Shown here: piece after piece, positions 131 through 58,245 of the stretch
Layout: every line of letters begins with the position of its first letter
Numbering within the stretch: position 1 is the first letter of the stretch
NCBI GenBank assembly: GCA_015852425.1
Contig: JAAAIG010000013.1
Coordinates: 17,554 to 81,553, forward strand
Source: Gryganskiella cystojenkinii
Taxonomy: Eukaryota > Mortierellomycota > Mortierellomycetes > Mortierellales > Mortierellaceae
DNA length: 64,000 bases
Reading direction: 5' to 3'
The notes under the pieces: generated by a model
What the model was told of the DNA's origin: nothing
What the model saw: the letters and a program-made list of their open reading frames with translations, nothing else
Databases searched by the model: none
Program-made: the position numbers and the translations under genes

Positions 131-1302
131 CTAGGCCTTGGTGTCTTCGGTGACCTTGACCTTGAGATCTTCCTTGGGTGCTGTAATCTGTTTGCCACCA
201 AAACTATTGGAAAATCGAAAAAAAAAAAAAAGTTTTTTAGGAGATTGAGTCAAACTGTTAACTGTGCGAACAAAGGAACAAGGTCGTTTTCGGCACTCAT
301 GCACCTACTGGTGGTACTCAAGGAAACGATAGCCTTGCACCAATTGAGCAGTCTCGTTAGTGGCATGGCAGGCGAACAAAAGGTAGTTGCGGGGCTGAAC
401 CATCCAGGCAAAGCGCATGAACAGAAGCGAATACACTGTCAAGGCTCCGGTCATCTTGCCCGAGATCAGTTCGGGGTCCTTCTTGAAATCCGCAATGGCG
501 GCCAAAGGCAGTCCCCAGTTGGCAACTAGAGAGAGCACGGCACAAGTAAACGGAACGAATACCCGTGAAAGAGAATTAGAACGCCATTTTACGCTCTGCC
601 AAATCATTGTCAAACCTATTCCTTGCTACTTACCGGGACCCCAGAAGTGCTAGAGCGAAAAGATCATGGTCATGACGTGTAATAGGAACATGGGATATGG
701 GATGGTCAGAAAGAGGCCTTGCTGTCGAAACTAGCAGTTGCAAGGCGAGTATGAGCCCAGAACTGTGCACGTCCCGAGATTTTTTTTTCCTCCAAGATTT
801 CCCGCGTTCCTCTCCAAGTAGTATGAGTGGTTGAGCCATAAGAGTATTGGGTGATTGATGCCAGCCTCTGGAATGCAGATTTCGAGAGCTTCCCCGAGAA
901 TCAAGAGACAGACTCTCTCATGCTATTCATGTTGTTCATGCTGTTCATCCTGGTCATCTGTTCATCTGTTCAACTGTTTATCATGATTTTCCGTGCCATC
1001 CAGTCATAAAAAGAATCCAGAAATTGTTGAAATGCCGACTTGTACTATCACTCACGGTGCTAATTGAACAGGAATTCGTGGTTAGAGAAGAGAAAAAGAG
1101 ATGAAGAAAAAAAGGAATGTGAGTACATCTATCTATCTATTCACCAACAGTGTGGTGTGGTACCATGACACGGAGGCGCCGTCGGTGGTCTTTTGCAAAA
1201 GTAATGAAGAACACACAAAAGCAACCGTTTCTACCTCATAAGATACTGTTTGAACTCGGGACTGGCGACTTTTTGTCCCAACTGCGATACCCAGGAAGCC
1301 AT
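131..1302 (-). CDS. MPC1: Mitochondrial pyruvate carrier subunit 1 (Mpc1), 5 exons including 4-nt and 16-nt exons
   Basis: Mpc1 forms, with an Mpc2/3 partner, the inner-membrane heterodimer that imports pyruvate. The exons that rebuild the protein are 1302-1235, 1059-1056, 649-634, 525-309 and 203-131; they sum to 378 nt and give 125 aa. Diagnostic blocks are STHFWGPVANWG, the run [24 protein letters not shown] and [10 protein letters not shown], all signatures of the family, and the length matches family members (about 110-130 aa). All junctions are GT-AG: donors GTAGAA, GTGAGT, GTAAGT and GTAGGT, and acceptors TTAG, CTAG, CTAG and ATAG. The start [10 protein letters not shown] resembles the amphipathic N-terminus of family members. 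The 4-nt exon is inferred from reading frame and conservation. The gene is divergent from bL32m (start 1727). Confidence 0.93.
1056..1059 (-). other. MPC1: 4-nt microexon of MPC1
   Basis: On the minus strand the bases CACC lie between a TTAG acceptor and a GTGAGT donor. Exon 1 ends ATG-AG and the exon after the microexon starts CAC-TTC. Inserting CACC gives AGC ACC CAC, i.e. the Ser-Thr-His of the conserved STHFWGP block, and restores the frame into exons 4 and 5. Without it the frame is off by one base. It is supported by frame, splice consensus and protein conservation, but no transcript was seen. Confidence 0.85.
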
Positions 1303-1522: not shown

Positions 1523-1726
1523 ATTCCTTCTTGTCGGTGGCTTAGCCCATGTTGTCCCCGTCTGCATCTCTCTCGACATCTCCTTGTCTCGTTCTCTGCG
1601 TCCTTCTCTGTTTCCTCCAATTTCGGACAATTTGAATTTCGTTCTTTTCATTGACATCCTCTTCCCCATTCCACCCTTGAACCATCCCCACATCGTGGAC
1701 AATTCTCTTTCACCTCGCTGCACACA

Positions 1727-2170
1727 ATGTCCCTTTTGAAAGCCCCAACCTCAAGGGCCGCCACAATGTCGCTCGCCCTCTCCTCCTCAAAGCTGATTCC
1801 ACATCGTGTCCGGGCTTACACCGTCTCGGCCTTTGCCCACCCCACTCTCTCTACCTTCATGTCTTCTCCCTCTTTATTGTCTTCAGCAACGACAACGAGC
1901 GAGCCCTCGGCCATTTCCACGACTGCTCTGGGTCGCCTGGGCAATTACATCTCTGATCTGATCCCTTCCGTCGTTTGGGCCTCCGTTCCCAAGAGCAAGA
2001 CATCTCATTCCAAGAAGCGCATGCGTCAGGCTACCAAGGGTCTGAAGGAGCAGCGCAACATTGTCCAGTGTCCTGGATGCGGACAGGCAAAGCTGATGCA
2101 TCACCTCTGCACACACTGCTACCGCGATATGAAAGGTCGTGGTCCATCCTCTACGACAGAAGAAGTATAA
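1727..2170 (+). CDS. MRPL32: Mitochondrial large-subunit ribosomal protein bL32m
   Basis: This is a component of the mitochondrial 54S/39S large ribosomal subunit. The single-exon frame encodes 147 aa: about 85 residues of Ser/Thr/Ala-rich presequence, then the L32 core. The core begins VPKSKTSHSKKRMRQ and carries a zinc ribbon with CPGCG and CTHC (four Cys) near residues 115-133, the hallmark of L32. A long N-terminal extension fits the known m-AAA-dependent maturation of bL32m. An internal Met at codon 14 (1766) is an alternative start; the first ATG is preferred because it keeps a longer basic presequence. It is divergent to MPC1, which also works in mitochondria. Confidence 0.9.
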   Translation: MSLLKAPTSRAATMSLALSSSKLIPHRVRAYTVSAFAHPTLSTFMSSPSLLSSATTTSEPSAISTTALGRLGNYISDLIPSVVWASVPKSKTSHSKKRMRQATKGLKEQRNIVQCPGCGQAKLMHHLCTHCYRDMKGRGPSSTTEEV

Positions 2171-5488: not shown

Positions 5489-5514
5489 TTTTATTTAAAT
5501 TATTTACCAATAAA
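5489..5514. terminator. Overlapping poly(A) signals of convergent genes
   Basis: A plus-strand AATAAA at 5509-5514 lies 43 bases past the M13 stop but inside the last codons of the minus-strand cyclase. A minus-strand AAATAAA lies just past the cyclase stop (5500-5502). The two genes must therefore have overlapping 3' ends. Confidence 0.5.
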
Positions 5515-8500
5515 TGGCACGGCGGTCGTGTCAGTACTTGACCCCACCTCGGTTTCTCCACCAACTTCAGGTGCCTGCCACTGAACAGGCAAATCGATCA
5601 ACCATCCAGATGGATCTAGGGCCATGGCAGAAAAGAGGAGGTATGCTTCGGAATAGCACCTATTTTTTTCGATCGCGTCTTCAGAGTGTTGACCCATCTT
5701 GGCCAAGTAATAGGCTCGTACATAGTTGACCCCATCCAATCCTCGATCAAGCCGATCCCAGCTCCGGCGTAGCTTATAGAGACCCTCGCGATGGTGGTTT
5801 TGACCCTGGATAATGAAGGAACGAAATGCCTCGGCAAGCGTGATAAAACATTGTGCAACCGCCTGGAATGGATCCTGCGAAAGACTGTGGAGCACTGGCC
5901 GAAAAATCATCTCTATCTTGTTCAACCGATAGTTGTCTGCAGGCACGCCAGAGACATTTGAATATGCGCCATCAAGCATCTCATAGAGAGACATGATTGT
6001 GAACGCGCAACATAACATTGGAAACGGGTGAGCAGCCACGCCTTGTTCGTCAAGACGCTCTGCTACGAGCTCGGCATAGATTCGGGCCCTGGAAAAGTTC
6101 CGCATCTTGGCATAGTAAAAGCTCAACATTGCATGAATCACCAACAGATTCATGAGCCGTGACCTCGGCATTGTGCGCCGCTCAATCAGCACGATCCAGC
6201 TCTCTGCATCCCTCAGTCGATCCTGAAGCAGCAAGTTCGCGAGATTAAGGATGGCAAACAAAGTCTCGCCTTCGGAATCACCGTTCTGGGCTGCGACAGT
6301 GGATATAGTACGCAGCAGCAGAAGATCCTCAGGGTGGTCGATAAAGGAACCTTCCCACATCCGATAGGCATACTTGAGGATCACGGACCGATAGAACGTT
6401 GCAAAGTTGGACACAACACCAAAGGCCTTGCTCTCATTAATGGCATCAGATAGCATCTGATGCGCGATATCTGGTCTACCTTCGCAATACTCGACGTAGG
6501 CCCGCATGGAGAGGAGCATGCCTTCGGTGCCTTCGGTGCCTTCGCCTGCCTCGTCTGCAAGTCTGGCCTTTTCCATGTACTCGCTACAAGTATGTTTGTT
6601 ACCCTTGAAGTAATGCAAGATACCATAACGACCTAGGGACACGGTTTGTTCGCTCGAGGGAAGTCCCAACCGGCGAGAGTAGTTGAGTGTATACAGCGTT
6701 GACAGCATGGCGGCGTTTGGCTCTGTTTTCCAAAAATAGATGTTCTGCAGACATCCAAGCACTCGAATAATCCGCTGGAGGGTCACCTTTGTCTTTGGAT
6801 CAACTTTGGCTTTAGGCTTTTTCCCGGACTGAGAAGGACCTGGGGTCGAGGTGCCGTGGTAATGAAGGTTGAACTTCCATTTTTCCATTAAAAGAGCAAC
6901 ACGCCACTGCTGGTGGGATTTGGGCCAGTGAAGCCCGTAGCGCGCTAGACTGTCTAACAGTGCTGACTCTGCTTCCTCGATGCGCATGCGTCGAGAAAGT
7001 GCTTCTCCCTTCATGCCATAGATATCTGCGAGATCCGCTTGACTGACCATGCTGTTTCCCCCACGGGCAGTATCGATGATATTTATAAGGTCGGTCAGTC
7101 TCTGGGTTGCCTCCGCGAGCATGTTGCTCTTGAGGTCAAAGGCAGACAGCGCTTTGAGATACTTGATCTTTTTCTCTGTGTGTTCCGTCTTGAGATAGTG
7201 CCGAGTAATCAATGGCAACAAATCGGAAAACTGACCAGGATCCAAGATAGACTCGCACAGCTGGGAAGGTTCCAGGAAAGACTCGTAAAACTGACCCATG
7301 ACCAAGTGATATGATACACGGTCCTCATATGGTATAGAGTCATAGATGTCGCGCGATGTCGATCCGGAACCAAAAGTATAGAGCGTGTTCATGACCACAT
7401 CCTCAGAGAATCGCACGTTTGTCTGCTGATGATCTGTCGTGATGGAAAGGAAACGGAACGTATCCAAGTCACTGATTATGGTCGGAAAGGTCTGGCCCTG
7501 TTCAGGGACGCCAAGCATGGTCTCCAAAGGACGTATGGCTGCAACCTCTGCGAGAGAGAACTGATCCCCCAGACAACTGGCAATCTTGAGAAAGTCCTGG
7601 AACCGAGGTGTCATCCGGTCATACTGCATGAGGATCATCTTCTTGCGATCTTGCTTCACCAGCATCTGCTCCATCTCCTCCACGTTCTCGTATGATTCGC
7701 TGATATTGGCGTCCTGCCCTGTCATGACCAACTCGCCGTCGACAATGTTGACATGGCAAAAGTCCTTCAACATGTTGGCCATGTTTTTGACGAATTTAGG
7801 ATTACCCTTGGTCTTGTCCTGCACGAGTTCGATTACCTCAGGGCAAATCTTTGTCACCGCTTTCGCCTCGAACGCTTTTAAGAGTGCCAGTTCAATCTCA
7901 CGCCGCTTCAATCCTTCGAGTGAGATCTCGAGGTGTTTGAAGTGGCTCGTAATTGATTGAAGGATATTACCGCCATAGTCGCGTTGTGGGCGCGAAAAGA
8001 TGACGACTAAAACTTTTGGACACCTCTCGTGTATGACTTGAAGAATATCGAGCGATTTCGCATCAGTCCCTAGAGTCCACAGATTTCAGAAGTGACTGTT
8101 AAATTCATGGAACAAGGAGAAGTGGGCACGAAGCTAGCAGAACGAAACAAGCCCACCTACATTGGACATCCTCGAACATGACTATGATCTTTACATAGGT
8201 GCTCGCATAGTTAAGCATACGAACGATAAAATCCGCGAGCATCTCGTCGTCATACTCATTCATAACTGGGGCCGAGTAATCAGATGAGAGTGTGGCGATA
8301 ATATCATGCAAGAGGTGCATAAGCTCGTCGCCCTCGCCCATCTTCTGAAGCGACACATTAATCAACTGCTGCAACTTTGTGATGTAGGTTGAGCTCCTTT
8401 TGGATTGTTCACCGAAATTGCTGATAGATGGACTCGGTGAAAGGTCCCAGACAGCATTAGAAATGATGCTCGAGTGGACAGATCGCCCAGATGTGCTGAT

Positions 8501-54038: not shown

Positions 54039-54225
54039 GAAAGGAGCCAGATAGATATATCCTACCAAGATGCATTGTTCTCATCAGAAAAGAAAAGAAA
54101 AGAGCTAAAACAGCCGATTTATCACCGCACAAATTACTGATAGTCATATATGTTTTTTCGTCCTTTTGAAGGCTGTTCGCTGTCCGATGCTCCTTCCTTT
54201 CTTTGATCTTTTGCCTTCCCACCCA

Positions 54226-54248
54226 TACACACACACACACACACACAA
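54226..54248 (+). repeat. CA dinucleotide microsatellite
   Basis: About eleven CA units in the leader about 100 bases before the proposed start codon of the Arg/Ser-rich gene. Confidence 0.8.
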
Positions 54249-54348
54249 ACCTCCTTCCATTCCTGCCTTTCTACTCATCTTCGTCTTTCAATTACATCTT
54301 TCGACCAATCCAACTACTATACACCTTATTACCCCGTTCCACTGCAGG

Positions 54349-57300
54349 ATGAACAGGCTCGAATACATCATCCCAGCTCTATACTCTGTCGCTCCAAAAC
54401 AATCGTTGATTCTCGATCAAGCCTGGTCAAGCGCCAATCACTCTGTCCCGAAGAGCGATGTCCTCATCCAACTCCAGACCAAGACTGGCCTCCAGTCCAT
54501 GGTGATTCGGTACTGGTTCCAGTGCAAACTTCACCTTGACGAGATCGACACTGCCCTCGATACTCATAAGGGCAAGCATGTTCGATTCCCGCAACTCGAG
54601 AACTTTCATGAGCTCATCCTCTTTACAGTCTCTGGGTCCTGTTACTGTGACCAAACTTTTGATGATCCTCCTTCGTCTTCGACTCTTTTCTCGTCGAATA
54701 CCAGCACAAACTCAAACTCAGCCACGACCGCAAACACGGCCGGCACACAAAGGACCTCCCGTCAGCAACTCTCTGTGCCCCGCCTTCCGGATCTACTTCA
54801 ATCGAACACTTTGAATAACACCAAGCCTGAAAAATCAAAATCTATGACAGTGAAAAGGCAACCTTCACCATCACCACTGCCAGCACGACCACAGCGACAA
54901 ACTCGCGGATTGTCCTCGACTCACGATTTTGCTTCTGCTACATCATCCTCTTCTTCAAATAGACCCATTCAAAAACCAGGAGTTCAAACCAGATCACTGC
55001 GATCTCGCGTGCGATCGCCTCAGCAACCACCACCACTAGTGCCAGTCCCCCACGTGACCGAACCAGATCCTCCTGTTCGTCGTGGTCGTGGTCGCCCAAG
55101 AGGCTCTGGTAGGGGTGGTGCTGCTGCTCGAGGTCGTGGCCGCGGTCGAGGACTCGATACTGTCTACGCAACACGTTCGTCACGCCGTCAACACAACGGT
55201 GATCAACGACAAAGCCAAGACCACTCGTACGTTAATACTCAGTCTACTGCCACTAACACTGGCAGTCCAACAACGCGGCCCTCAACCCCGCAACCGACAA
55301 TCGAGCAATATCAACAACCAGTCCCAGGACGTGGACGTGGTCTTGGTTTGGGAAAAGGCGTCGGCAGCGCTTTTCTTATGCGTCGACCCAATACTCAAAA
55401 TCGTCAATCGAGCCACAGTCAGAGCCCGAGTAGCTCCGATTCTTCGTCTGACTCTGGAAATAGCTCTTATAAAAGCACCCGAAGTCGATGTCGAAACCGA
55501 AGCAAGTCCCCGTGTCGAAAAACTAGAAGCAGACGGTCGGATATGCGCCATAGCCGAGGCCGTGATCAAAGCCCTGACCGCGGTCCAGCATCAAGCCGTG
55601 ACCGAAGAAGTCCTAGTCGAAGCAGCGGAAGCAGTGGTCAACGTCATCGAGGTCACCAAACACGCCAGAGCAGTTTGAGCAGTCGAAGCAATCGGAGTCG
55701 TCAGAATTCTCAAAGTTCTCAGAGTCGTAGCAGTAGCAGTGACAGCGGAAGCAGCAGCGACAGCAGTGGTAGCGAGAGCGACAGTGACAGCGATAATGAC
55801 AGTGATATGAAGACTTTCACCAAACACAACAACCGCCATGCGCTGGTTAGACGAGTCACCGGCGCCAAAACTCCAAAGATCACGATCAAACTCCAGACTC
55901 AAGAAGAACCGGTTGTAAGGGAGAGAGGGATGATCATTTTCAGTGAGGACTCCAAGTCTGATTCCGAGCCATCGAGTCAAGTTCCTGAGGTTTCAACGGT
56001 CTCCGAACCAAAAAGTGTCTCCGGTGTAGACAAATCGCCAGAGCCGTCACGAATACTAACGCCTAACCAGGTCGTTGTTAGATCATACGAGACCTTCAAG
56101 TCTAACGAGTTCTCAAAGCGGAATGAATCTCGAATGACAGAAGAGGTTTCTTCAATTACGAACAGAACACAAAAGTCGAACGGCTTTCCCAATGCAACGG
56201 AGGAGAATCCCGGAGTGCAGGACACTTCAAACACTTTTGACTTCTCATGCACAGAGGCCAGTTCGAGATACTTCGCTCCTGTGGTGCAGGTGGCAGTCAA
56301 GCATTCCAATATGAACGGGTTGTCCAGGGAAACCAACACACTGGCTCTTGCCATCGAGATTGAAAGTGACAAAGGCGACGGCGAGGTCGGTGCGGGATCT
56401 GTATCTACCAAGGTGTTTCTCCCTTCTGTGGCCGTCGCCGGCAACTCGACCTCGTCCGGAGTTACCATGGCAGCGACTGTTCCCGTTATCACTTCTGATA
56501 GCGACAGCGACGAAGTAAGTCTGGGATCATTGCCTACCGATAAGCGTCGTGCTTTACGGTCGCCGTTTGCTCATGCTGCTCAAACCGCGCCTCCTCCCAA
56601 ACAAGCGACCCCTGACAAGATGACCAAAACTACCAACTCAGATACTCCTGTCTCGATGCAAACAGACGCTGCAAATGCATATGGTGATCCGAGAGCAGGT
56701 GATCAATCACGCAACGAGCTCATGATGAACCAACGACAGGGCCGCGCACCAGGCAAGGATGGGGACTCAGCAGTGGTGGTTCATAATTGTTCAGATTCCC
56801 CAGCGCAGGCAACTGACGATCGACTTACCAAGACGCAGAGAGCCAGTCTCGCACCGGTCCCAGAGAAGACCACAGGAGTCCTCGAGTCGGACTGGCGAAA
56901 ACAGTACTCCGCTATCACTGCTGCCAGACGCGCCACTACTGCCGCCACCCCTTACTCTGGTGGTCCAAAGATGAAGACTGAAGGAAAGCCTACAGGCACA
57001 GTCAACGATAACGTAAACAACTTCTCATACCCTCAACTCCTGTCCTCTCAAATCGTTCCCGACAAGAAGCAGATTTTCCGATACATGTGTAAAATTCGAG
57101 CTCAATGCGACGAACTTTTGAAAGGGACACCCACACTTTCGCTCTCCAGCAACAATAACATTAACAACACCAGCATCACTTCCACCACCACTGGAGCGTC
57201 ATCGTCGATTACACTTCGTCATAACCTTCAGAAGCGACATGGATCAAACCTTGACCATTACCTTGCTCCTACCAAAAATGGTCCTTATGGTCCGAACCGT

Positions 57301-58245
57301 GGATGGATGTCTTTAACCAGCTGCCAACCAGACCAACGGCTACAAAAGCGAGCCAGAGTGGATTACATGGACATGTACGCTGAGTCGCAAAGCATCCAAG
57401 GACTTGTTCGACCATCAACCATCAATCCTGGTACACTTGAGCAGGTCCAGCGGCAAAGGGTTTTAGAGCGACAAGGACAGCCCCTCGAAAACCCGTTCCA
57501 TCGTTACCTTGGCGATCACCGAGGTCAAAGGCAGGATGGTGGAGGTCAGCTCAAACGCCAAGAGAGATCTCGAGACCAACAATCCGACCTTATTTCTTAT
57601 GCTTCACAATCGGAGAACTGCGAGTCTTCTCGAGGAAGAGGAAGAGAACGAGGACGCGGAGGAAGGTTTGATCGGTCGAATTCCACGAGCACACAAGGCA
57701 GTGCGAACGACGATTACGGTGTCAACTGTTCTTCCATGTTGCAATCACCTCATGTTAGTCCCGCAGTCCTTTCACTTGTTCCCAGTACTGCTGAGAACGA
57801 AGAGTCGCCCAAGTTGGTGATATCGCCCCACATGACATTGATCCAACCCCGTCAACAGAAGGAGGAGGAGGAAGAGAAAGATAAGCAACAACTCTCCTCG
57901 TTGTCTTTGTCGTCTAACCTGCCTTGCTCGACAATAATGTCCAACGGCAATTTGCCGCCAACGGTCATTTCAGATGGATCATTTAACGGTGGCAGTATGT
58001 CAGATGTCGAGGAGGTTCTGTCTCAGACAGGATTGGAAGATAGAAATGATAACGCTTTGTCTTTGAACAACAACTGGTCCGATCCTTCCAAAGGTACCAA
58101 AGCCGCGTCAGCGACAGTTCCGACATCAAGCGACTCAACCGCCACTTCGGCCACGAAGGCGTCAAGAGGTGGACAACAGGGTCCGGTTGTGAACGGATCT
58201 CAAGTGCTTTCTCCGGCTATTCACGACGCAAAGCCCTGGTTTTGA
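54349..58245 (+). CDS. Large Arg/Ser-rich protein of unknown function with AT-hook-like motifs
   Basis: I do not recognise the family. From the ATG at 54349 the frame gives 1298 aa without an intron. It is open further upstream to an ATG at 54166, but that part is a CT-rich, CA-repeat leader, so the inner start is preferred. Residues 1-105 look folded (MNRLEYIIPALYSVAPKQSL; later RYWFQCKLHLDEID and FHELILFTVSGSCYC). Then come RGRGRPRGSGRGG, an AT-hook/RGG-like stretch (about 55085-55150), and a long RS-dipeptide region (about 55400-55800) ending in Ser-Asp repeats. The rest is mostly disordered. A short ordered patch, KKQIFRYMCKIRAQCDELL (57064-57120), stands out near the C-terminal third. 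RS and AT-hook features suggest a nuclear role in RNA processing or chromatin, by inference only. Confidence 0.7.
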   Translation: MNRLEYIIPALYSVAPKQSLILDQAWSSANHSVPKSDVLIQLQTKTGLQSMVIRYWFQCKLHLDEIDTALDTHKGKHVRFPQLENFHELILFTVSGSCYCDQTFDDPPSSSTLFSSNTSTNSNSATTANTAGTQRTSRQQLSVPRLPDLLQSNTLNNTKPEKSKSMTVKRQPSPSPLPARPQRQTRGLSSTHDFASATSSSSSNRPIQKPGVQTRSLRSRVRSPQQPPPLVPVPHVTEPDPPVRRGRGRPRGSGRGGAAARGRGRGRGLDTVYATRSSRRQHNGDQRQSQDHSYVNTQSTATNTGSPTTRPSTPQPTIEQYQQPVPGRGRGLGLGKGVGSAFLMRRPNTQNRQSSHSQSPSSSDSSSDSGNSSYKSTRSRCRNRSKSPCRKTRSRRSDMRHSRGRDQSPDRGPASSRDRRSPSRSSGSSGQRHRGHQTRQSSLSSRSNRSRQNSQSSQSRSSSSDSGSSSDSSGSESDSDSDNDSDMKTFTKHNNRHALVRRVTGAKTPKITIKLQTQEEPVVRERGMIIFSEDSKSDSEPSSQVPEVSTVSEPKSVSGVDKSPEPSRILTPNQVVVRSYETFKSNEFSKRNESRMTEEVSSITNRTQKSNGFPNATEENPGVQDTSNTFDFSCTEASSRYFAPVVQVAVKHSNMNGLSRETNTLALAIEIESDKGDGEVGAGSVSTKVFLPSVAVAGNSTSSGVTMAATVPVITSDSDSDEVSLGSLPTDKRRALRSPFAHAAQTAPPPKQATPDKMTKTTNSDTPVSMQTDAANAYGDPRAGDQSRNELMMNQRQGRAPGKDGDSAVVVHNCSDSPAQATDDRLTKTQRASLAPVPEKTTGVLESDWRKQYSAITAARRATTAATPYSGGPKMKTEGKPTGTVNDNVNNFSYPQLLSSQIVPDKKQIFRYMCKIRAQCDELLKGTPTLSLSSNNNINNTSITSTTTGASSSITLRHNLQKRHGSNLDHYLAPTKNGPYGPNRGWMSLTSCQPDQRLQKRARVDYMDMYAESQSIQGLVRPSTINPGTLEQVQRQRVLERQGQPLENPFHRYLGDHRGQRQDGGGQLKRQERSRDQQSDLISYASQSENCESSRGRGRERGRGGRFDRSNSTSTQGSANDDYGVNCSSMLQSPHVSPAVLSLVPSTAENEESPKLVISPHMTLIQPRQQKEEEEEKDKQQLSSLSLSSNLPCSTIMSNGNLPPTVISDGSFNGGSMSDVEEVLSQTGLEDRNDNALSLNNNWSDPSKGTKAASATVPTSSDSTATSATKASRGGQQGPVVNGSQVLSPAIHDAKPWF

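Follow-up and report, generated by a model that had tools for sequence, protein, structure and literature searches.

How does Gryganskiella cystojenkinii encode an intact MPC1 protein at a locus whose exons, when joined directly, lose their reading frame? The fungus belongs to the Mortierellaceae (Mortierellomycota). The locus lies on the minus strand of the window, by which we mean the whole stretch of 64,000 nucleotides analysed here, taken from contig 143 (17,554-81,553). The first-pass annotation had held that the segments 1302-1235 and 649-634 cannot be joined in frame, and indeed splicing exon 1, which ends in ATGAG, straight to the 16-nt exon CACTTCTGGGGTCCCG shifts the frame right after YLMST and leads to an early stop. 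It had also pointed to the letters TTAG-CACC-GTGAGT in the intervening intron; the minus strand there reads AATTAG-CACC-GTGAGT, with CACC exactly at 1059-1056. Insertion of these four bases was said to mend the frame and to restore Ser-Thr-His, and this is what we find: CACC finishes the Ser codon (AG-C) and then codes for Thr (ACC), the expected junction being ATGAG-CACC-CACTTC, versus ATGAGCACTTC without the microexon. The resulting MPC1 has 125 amino acids, includes YLMSTHFWGPVANWG, reads YLM-ST-HFWGP and matches the Pfam MPC family (PF03650) with 122.1 bits. A four-base coding exon is thereby supported as the best reading of the MPC1 gap, the splicing itself being predicted from the DNA.

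Predicted Structure of the MPC1 Gene

The gene is composed of five coding exons, which measure, in order, 68, 4, 16, 217 and 73 nt (Table 1). Its donors are GTAGAA, GTGAGT, GTAAGT and GTAGGT, and TAG ends all four acceptors. An in-frame TAG immediately 5' of the CAC of exon 3 implies that this exon starts no earlier than 649. The gene at 131..1302 belongs to MPC1 rather than MPC2: the best solved chains for the 125-residue product are named MPC1 (E 3.4e-42, query residues 7-100), whereas solved MPC2 chains reach only E 5.9e-08 or worse, and in the search against solved chains the product aligns with human MPC1.

Table 1. Features of the MPC1 locus of G. cystojenkinii (positions in the window)
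Feature	Position	Strand	Remarks
MPC1 coding exon 1	1235..1302	-	68 nt, ATG ... CTT ATG AG; followed by donor GTAGAA
MPC1 intron 1	1060..1234	-	175 nt; acceptor ATTAG
MPC1 coding exon 2, predicted microexon CACC	1056..1059	-	4 nt; context AATTAG-CACC-GTGAGT
MPC1 intron 2	650..1055	-	406 nt; donor GTGAGT, acceptor CTCTAG
MPC1 coding exon 3, microexon CACTTCTGGGGTCCCG	634..649	-	16 nt; HFWGP and first base of Val
MPC1 coding exon 4	309..525	-	217 nt; Pfam MPC match
MPC1 coding exon 5	131..203	-	73 nt including stop; preceding donor CCA-GTAGGT at 308, acceptor CAATAG
Spurious 26-nt 'exon' of public model P0010	1164..1189	-	absent from the spliced MPC1 proposed here

As laid out here, the gene would contain two consecutive microexons, one of 4 nt and then one of 16 nt (649-634). 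Intron 2 carries a short degenerate stretch of ATGAACAG-like units at about 980-920 on the minus strand. Immediately upstream of MPC1, head to head with it on the opposite strand, an open frame (1655-2170, plus strand) encodes a Ribosomal_L32p domain. Two further open frames of the window, at 5500-8085 (minus strand, 861 codons) and 54109-58245 (plus strand, 1,378 codons), gave no Pfam match at E 0.001.

CACC among the Possible Joins

We enumerated the ways in which one internal exon of at most 60 nt, with an AG acceptor, a GT or GC donor and flanking introns of at least 40 nt, restores the frame between exon 1 and exon 3. There are 215 such joins, 158 of which are free of stops, and a single one of these 158 restores YLM-ST-HFWGP, namely the join through CACC (1059-1056) from the donor that follows exon 1 at 1235. 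Among the 158 joins, those that use the exon-1 donor GTAGAA include just one whose internal exon has a GTRAGT donor of its own, and this again is CACC. That GTAGAA itself deviates from GTRAGT is a point against the microexon. Direct joins of exon 1 to exon 3 were rejected as well: only two keep the frame, at the cost of 13 or 12 residues, QYLMST among them.

As a chance control, the 585-nt intron between exon 1 and exon 3 was subjected to 20,000 dinucleotide shuffles. The bare motif AGNNNNGT is found in 70% of these, which places the weight on the coding of Ser-Thr and on the strong donor: AG[CT]ACNGT is present in 2.97% of the shuffles, and in 0.075% once a GTRAG donor is demanded.

Public MPC1 Models of Mortierellaceae

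The locus already has a public protein, P0010, 'pyruvate transporter mpc1 [Gryganskiella cystojenkinii]', which is identical to the MPC1 described here over the part that the two share. The first-pass annotation had expected gene prediction to fail on so small an exon, and P0010 bears this out, being truncated to 106 amino acids: it begins at the ATG of 'YLM' and has lost the N-terminus, and its model continues from ATGAG through a spurious 26-nt exon at 1189-1164 to exon 4, leaving out the 4-nt exon as well as the 16-nt one.

How relatives fare was read from three protein searches, of which we considered the best 120 of 1,956, of 1,492 and of 1,987 matches, together 288 distinct entries. These entries are clusters at 90% identity, and all counts refer to entries and not to species, some species appearing more than once. 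Forty of the first search's best 120 form the Mortierellaceae set, assigned by genus name and including P0010; entries without a name were counted with the others. The exons of relatives are deduced here from faulty protein models, not from genomic DNA.

Only three of the 40 listed Mortierellaceae entries contain STHFWGP (P0002 from Dissophora, P0003 from Benniella and P0007 from Gamsiella). The models of 25 are correct through YLM and wrong thereafter, 12 lack exon 1 (P0036 and P0043 are partial records that start at HFWGP), and HFWGP, which is encoded by the 16-nt exon, is missing from 11. For Gamsiella multidivaricata a right model (P0007) and a wrong one (P0050) coexist. The three correct models carry identifiers that we take to be JGI-style. 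JGI-style gene models are often built with transcripts.

The errors themselves are informative. Three of the 25 entries that go wrong after YLM read STSGV, a direct skip of the microexon. Six others read YLM-ST-V and come from Entomortierella, Linnemannia (two), Podila (two) and Mortierella: P0001 (STVSNT), P0015 (STVRTS), P0016 (STVRID), P0020 (STVSDS), P0022 (STVSHW) and P0026 (STVIAN). All but P0026 show STV[SR], the translation of AG-[CT]ACN-GTRAG, as obtained when a gene finder uses the microexon acceptor and overruns its donor. Reading through the G. cystojenkinii DNA in this manner yields STVSDSTS, and the Podila entry P0020 likewise has STVSDS. From these read-through peptides it follows that the acceptor, the four bases and the donor are apparently conserved in Entomortierella, Linnemannia, Podila and Mortierella. 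In P0019 (Mortierella sp. GBAus27b) RT stands in place of ST, which would mean a faulty model or another 4-nt exon.

Other Fungi and Vertebrates

Outside the Mortierellaceae the junction is right in 77 of the 80 remaining entries of the first search's best 120 and in 53 of the 55 new entries of the second search (best 120 of 1,492). Models broken at the same residue occur in Chytridiomycota, in P0064 from Gaertneriomyces (YLMR-HFWGP), P0086 from Polychytrium and P0122 from Rhizoclosmatium, and in Blastocladiomycota, in P0098 from Allomyces arbusculus; the Allomyces macrogynus entry P0032 is right. These breaks suggest that the microexon may be present in chytrids and Blastocladiomycota, too. 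Correct entries elsewhere may reflect absence of the exon, its introns having been lost, or merely better annotation. In the fifth broken entry outside the Mortierellaceae, the MPC1-like P0126 of the second search, the model errs later, within HFW-GP (STHFWVSKN...), which suggests an intron at a place other than in the G. cystojenkinii MPC1.

Vertebrate MPC1 provides a control, because the main text of Koh et al. (2023, PMC9929638) describes human exon 2 as a constitutive 4-bp exon, TACG, with a donor that is apparently guAaga. Among the 113 new vertebrate entries of the third search (best 120 of 1,987), 82 contain STHFWGP and 31 do not. In 30 of these 31 the residues that separate YL[MT] from HFWGP are incorrect or absent; the remaining one, P0204, has scattered substitutions. 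Two entries scored as right, P0190 and P0241, show an insertion or a different start. A cat entry, P0196, reads YLM-STVRKLF, as if translated from AG-TACG-GTAAGA, and this read-through matches the exon and donor given in the main text of PMC9929638, placing the vertebrate exon at the same codons and in the same phase. Eight vertebrate entries and the chytrid entry P0122 have R followed by W, S, C, F or Y in the gap, the signature of exon 1 overrun by four intron bases (AGG TNN), which indicates that the gap measures four bases there as well. P0176 (116 members, isoform X1) has SR instead of ST and P0284 (52 members) has RS; these letters may stem from real alternative isoforms rather than from errors or frame-fitting artefacts.

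Candidate Splicing Signals around CACC

Upstream of CACC, intron 1 contains a pyrimidine tract from -58 to -25 (33 of 34 positions), the best 25-nt stretch of which holds 24 pyrimidines (-49 to -25). The best 25-nt counts at the four MPC1 acceptors are 24, 20, 19 and 22, the microexon acceptor being the highest, and three other introns of the window, picked by rules that already require a donor and a branch motif and hence no true control for splice strength, score 19, 16 and 16 versus 24. On both strands of the window, 20 of 3,156 YAG sites have at least 24 of 25 pyrimidines within 80 nt. Branch-like motifs are found at -23 (CTAAC) and -61 (CTCAC). The GTGAGT 3' of CACC is what we take to be a consensus donor.

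Discussion

Could the MPC1 frame be rescued without CACC? Conceivably, the reading frame is mended by another small exon within the 585-nt intron or by another donor of exon 1, CACC being there by coincidence; 157 further stop-free single-exon joins would restore the frame, and the public models of some relatives use exons of this kind. We consider this highly improbable, since none of the 157 alternatives yields Ser-Thr at the junction, which is present in 212 of the 248 listed entries outside the Mortierellaceae set (77/80, 53/55 and 82/113), no alternative on the exon-1 donor GTAGAA has a GTRAGT donor, and the faulty public models vary widely between entries, as guesses would. The frameshift that results from joining exon 1 to exon 3 directly would also be expected if the locus were misassembled, or were a degenerate copy, with an intact MPC1 elsewhere in the genome. 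The 35.0-Mb assembly of 1,050 contigs has only two Pfam MPC matches, however, the gene described here and an MPC2-like gene on the reverse strand of contig C723, and neither the intact state of the remaining MPC1 exons and splice sites nor the identical break in many relatives fits decay or misassembly, an explanation to which we attach next to no weight. From sequence motifs, we presume that the C723 gene is MPC2 and likely the partner subunit. As a bearer of the microexon it was ruled out: its KTIHFWAPAAKW / HFWAP exon is continuous, without a 4-nt exon.

Returning to CACC as a coding exon, how might four bases be recognised by the splicing machinery? The exon would have to be included constitutively, in every functional mRNA, because skipping yields a short frameshifted product. 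In human MPC1, as the main text of Koh et al. reports, no exon-2-skipped transcript is seen even when nonsense-mediated decay is blocked, 67 nt of upstream and 6 nt of downstream sequence are enough for the 4-bp exon to be spliced in minigenes, and exon 2 is still spliced when cut to 2, 1 or 0 bp, the 0-bp exon being processed as two introns (PMC9929638). By analogy with these minigenes, we envision that CACC is recognised from signals in the introns, namely the pyrimidine tract, CTAAC and ATTAG upstream and GTGAGT downstream. The two introns would probably be removed successively; if intron 1 left first, exon 1 and CACC would come to lie before an intact GTGAGT, and the second splicing step would meet an ordinary exon.

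Comparison with exon 2 of human and mouse MPC1, as described in the main text of PMC9929638, shows the same gene, the same length, the same Ser-Thr codons of YLMSTHFWGP and the same phases. Well upstream of the exon both have a pyrimidine-rich stretch, with 22 pyrimidines among the 25 positions from -67 to -43 in human and 24 among the 25 from -49 to -25 in G. cystojenkinii, albeit closer to the exon in the fungus. The exon bases differ, CACC versus TACG, as do the flanking introns, which span 175 and 406 nt in G. cystojenkinii but more than 12 and 3 kb in human. Major branch points map to -68 and -64 in human, where the pyrimidine-rich stretch covers -67 to -43, whereas the candidates in the fungus are CTAAC at -23 and CTCAC at -61. 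The human exon has been proven by splicing experiments; its G. cystojenkinii counterpart is predicted from sequence.

Fungal and vertebrate exons agree in position (after the AG of a Ser codon), in phases (2 upstream, 0 downstream) and in length, and models break at the same residue in Mortierellaceae, chytrids, Blastocladiomycota and vertebrates. In our view, CACC is very probably a constitutive MPC1 microexon that is homologous to the vertebrate 4-bp exon and goes back to an ancestor shared by fungi and animals. It is likely, if somewhat less firmly so, that the exon predates the split between fungi and animals as one unit, its four bases, codons and phases having been kept in Mortierellomycota, probably in chytrids and Blastocladiomycota, and in vertebrates. 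Alternatively, the 4-nt exon may be real but have arisen independently in fungi, introns having been gained on either side of the same four bases in both lineages. AG-N contexts are favoured sites of intron gain, and the mostly intact junctions outside the Mortierellaceae (77/80 and 53/55 of the listed entries) would fit absence of the exon elsewhere. Yet independent gain requires that two intron sites, separated by just four bases, both recur with the same position and phase, and the same-residue breaks in P0064, P0086 and P0122 (Chytridiomycota) and in P0098 (Blastocladiomycota) suggest that other early fungi carry the exon; we regard a separate origin as unlikely. The G. cystojenkinii exon would then be a well-supported fungal instance of a known MPC1 exon, with which it is very likely homologous.

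Because a 4-nt exon is already proven for human MPC1 in the main text of PMC9929638, what is new is how old and how widespread the exon appears to be rather than that it exists. Among the literature matches listed, a search that covered the main texts of open papers, PMC9929638 was the one paper on the MPC1 microexon; none described a fungal 4-nt exon of MPC1 or a pre-vertebrate age, and the main text of PMC9929638 has no word starting with 'fung'. The passages checked of a mouse knockout paper (PMC5346765) give no detail on exon 2, and a paper on Mortierella alpina (PMC4462047) has 'microexon' once, as an aligner setting. When contigs of prokaryote genomes were searched for the DNA of the gene, a single locus came up (27 residues at 48% in a MAG) and no DNA of relatives; viral contigs gave none.

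Plant microexons of 1-15 nt resemble the MPC1 exon, as far as the main text of PMC8831610 describes them, in being conserved, mostly included, often unannotated and accompanied by U-rich intron motifs, and rice offers a 4-nt example. They differ in residing in other genes as far as seen, that main text having no word that starts with pyruvate or MPC. The Xlr2 microexon of Trichoderma virens (PMC11121469) is likewise fungal, but, unlike that of MPC1, it is described there as an alternatively spliced regulatory switch; according to the abstract of that paper, functional microexons had previously been undescribed in filamentous fungi, and its introduction names Schizosaccharomyces pombe as the only fungus in which microexons had until then been put to experimental test.

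If the proposed history is true, few known coding exons would be as small or as old as that of MPC1, and inclusion of a 4-nt exon by means of intron signals would already have been within reach of the opisthokont ancestor's spliceosome. An exon of four bases that breaks the frame when missed, and that has apparently persisted since the ancestor of fungi and animals, is a clean natural test of the minimal spliceable exon, as hardly any exon sequence can help. Early-diverging fungi whose introns are short would offer a simple setting in which to study such splicing. For the Mortierellaceae the consequences are immediate: the junction is not right in 37 of the 40 listed entries (two of the 37 being partial records), and a missed microexon corrupts the N-termini of a carrier central to metabolism, along with its targeting predictions and phylogenies. 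Many of the MPC1 entries of this family should be repaired once the microexon is included in their gene models.
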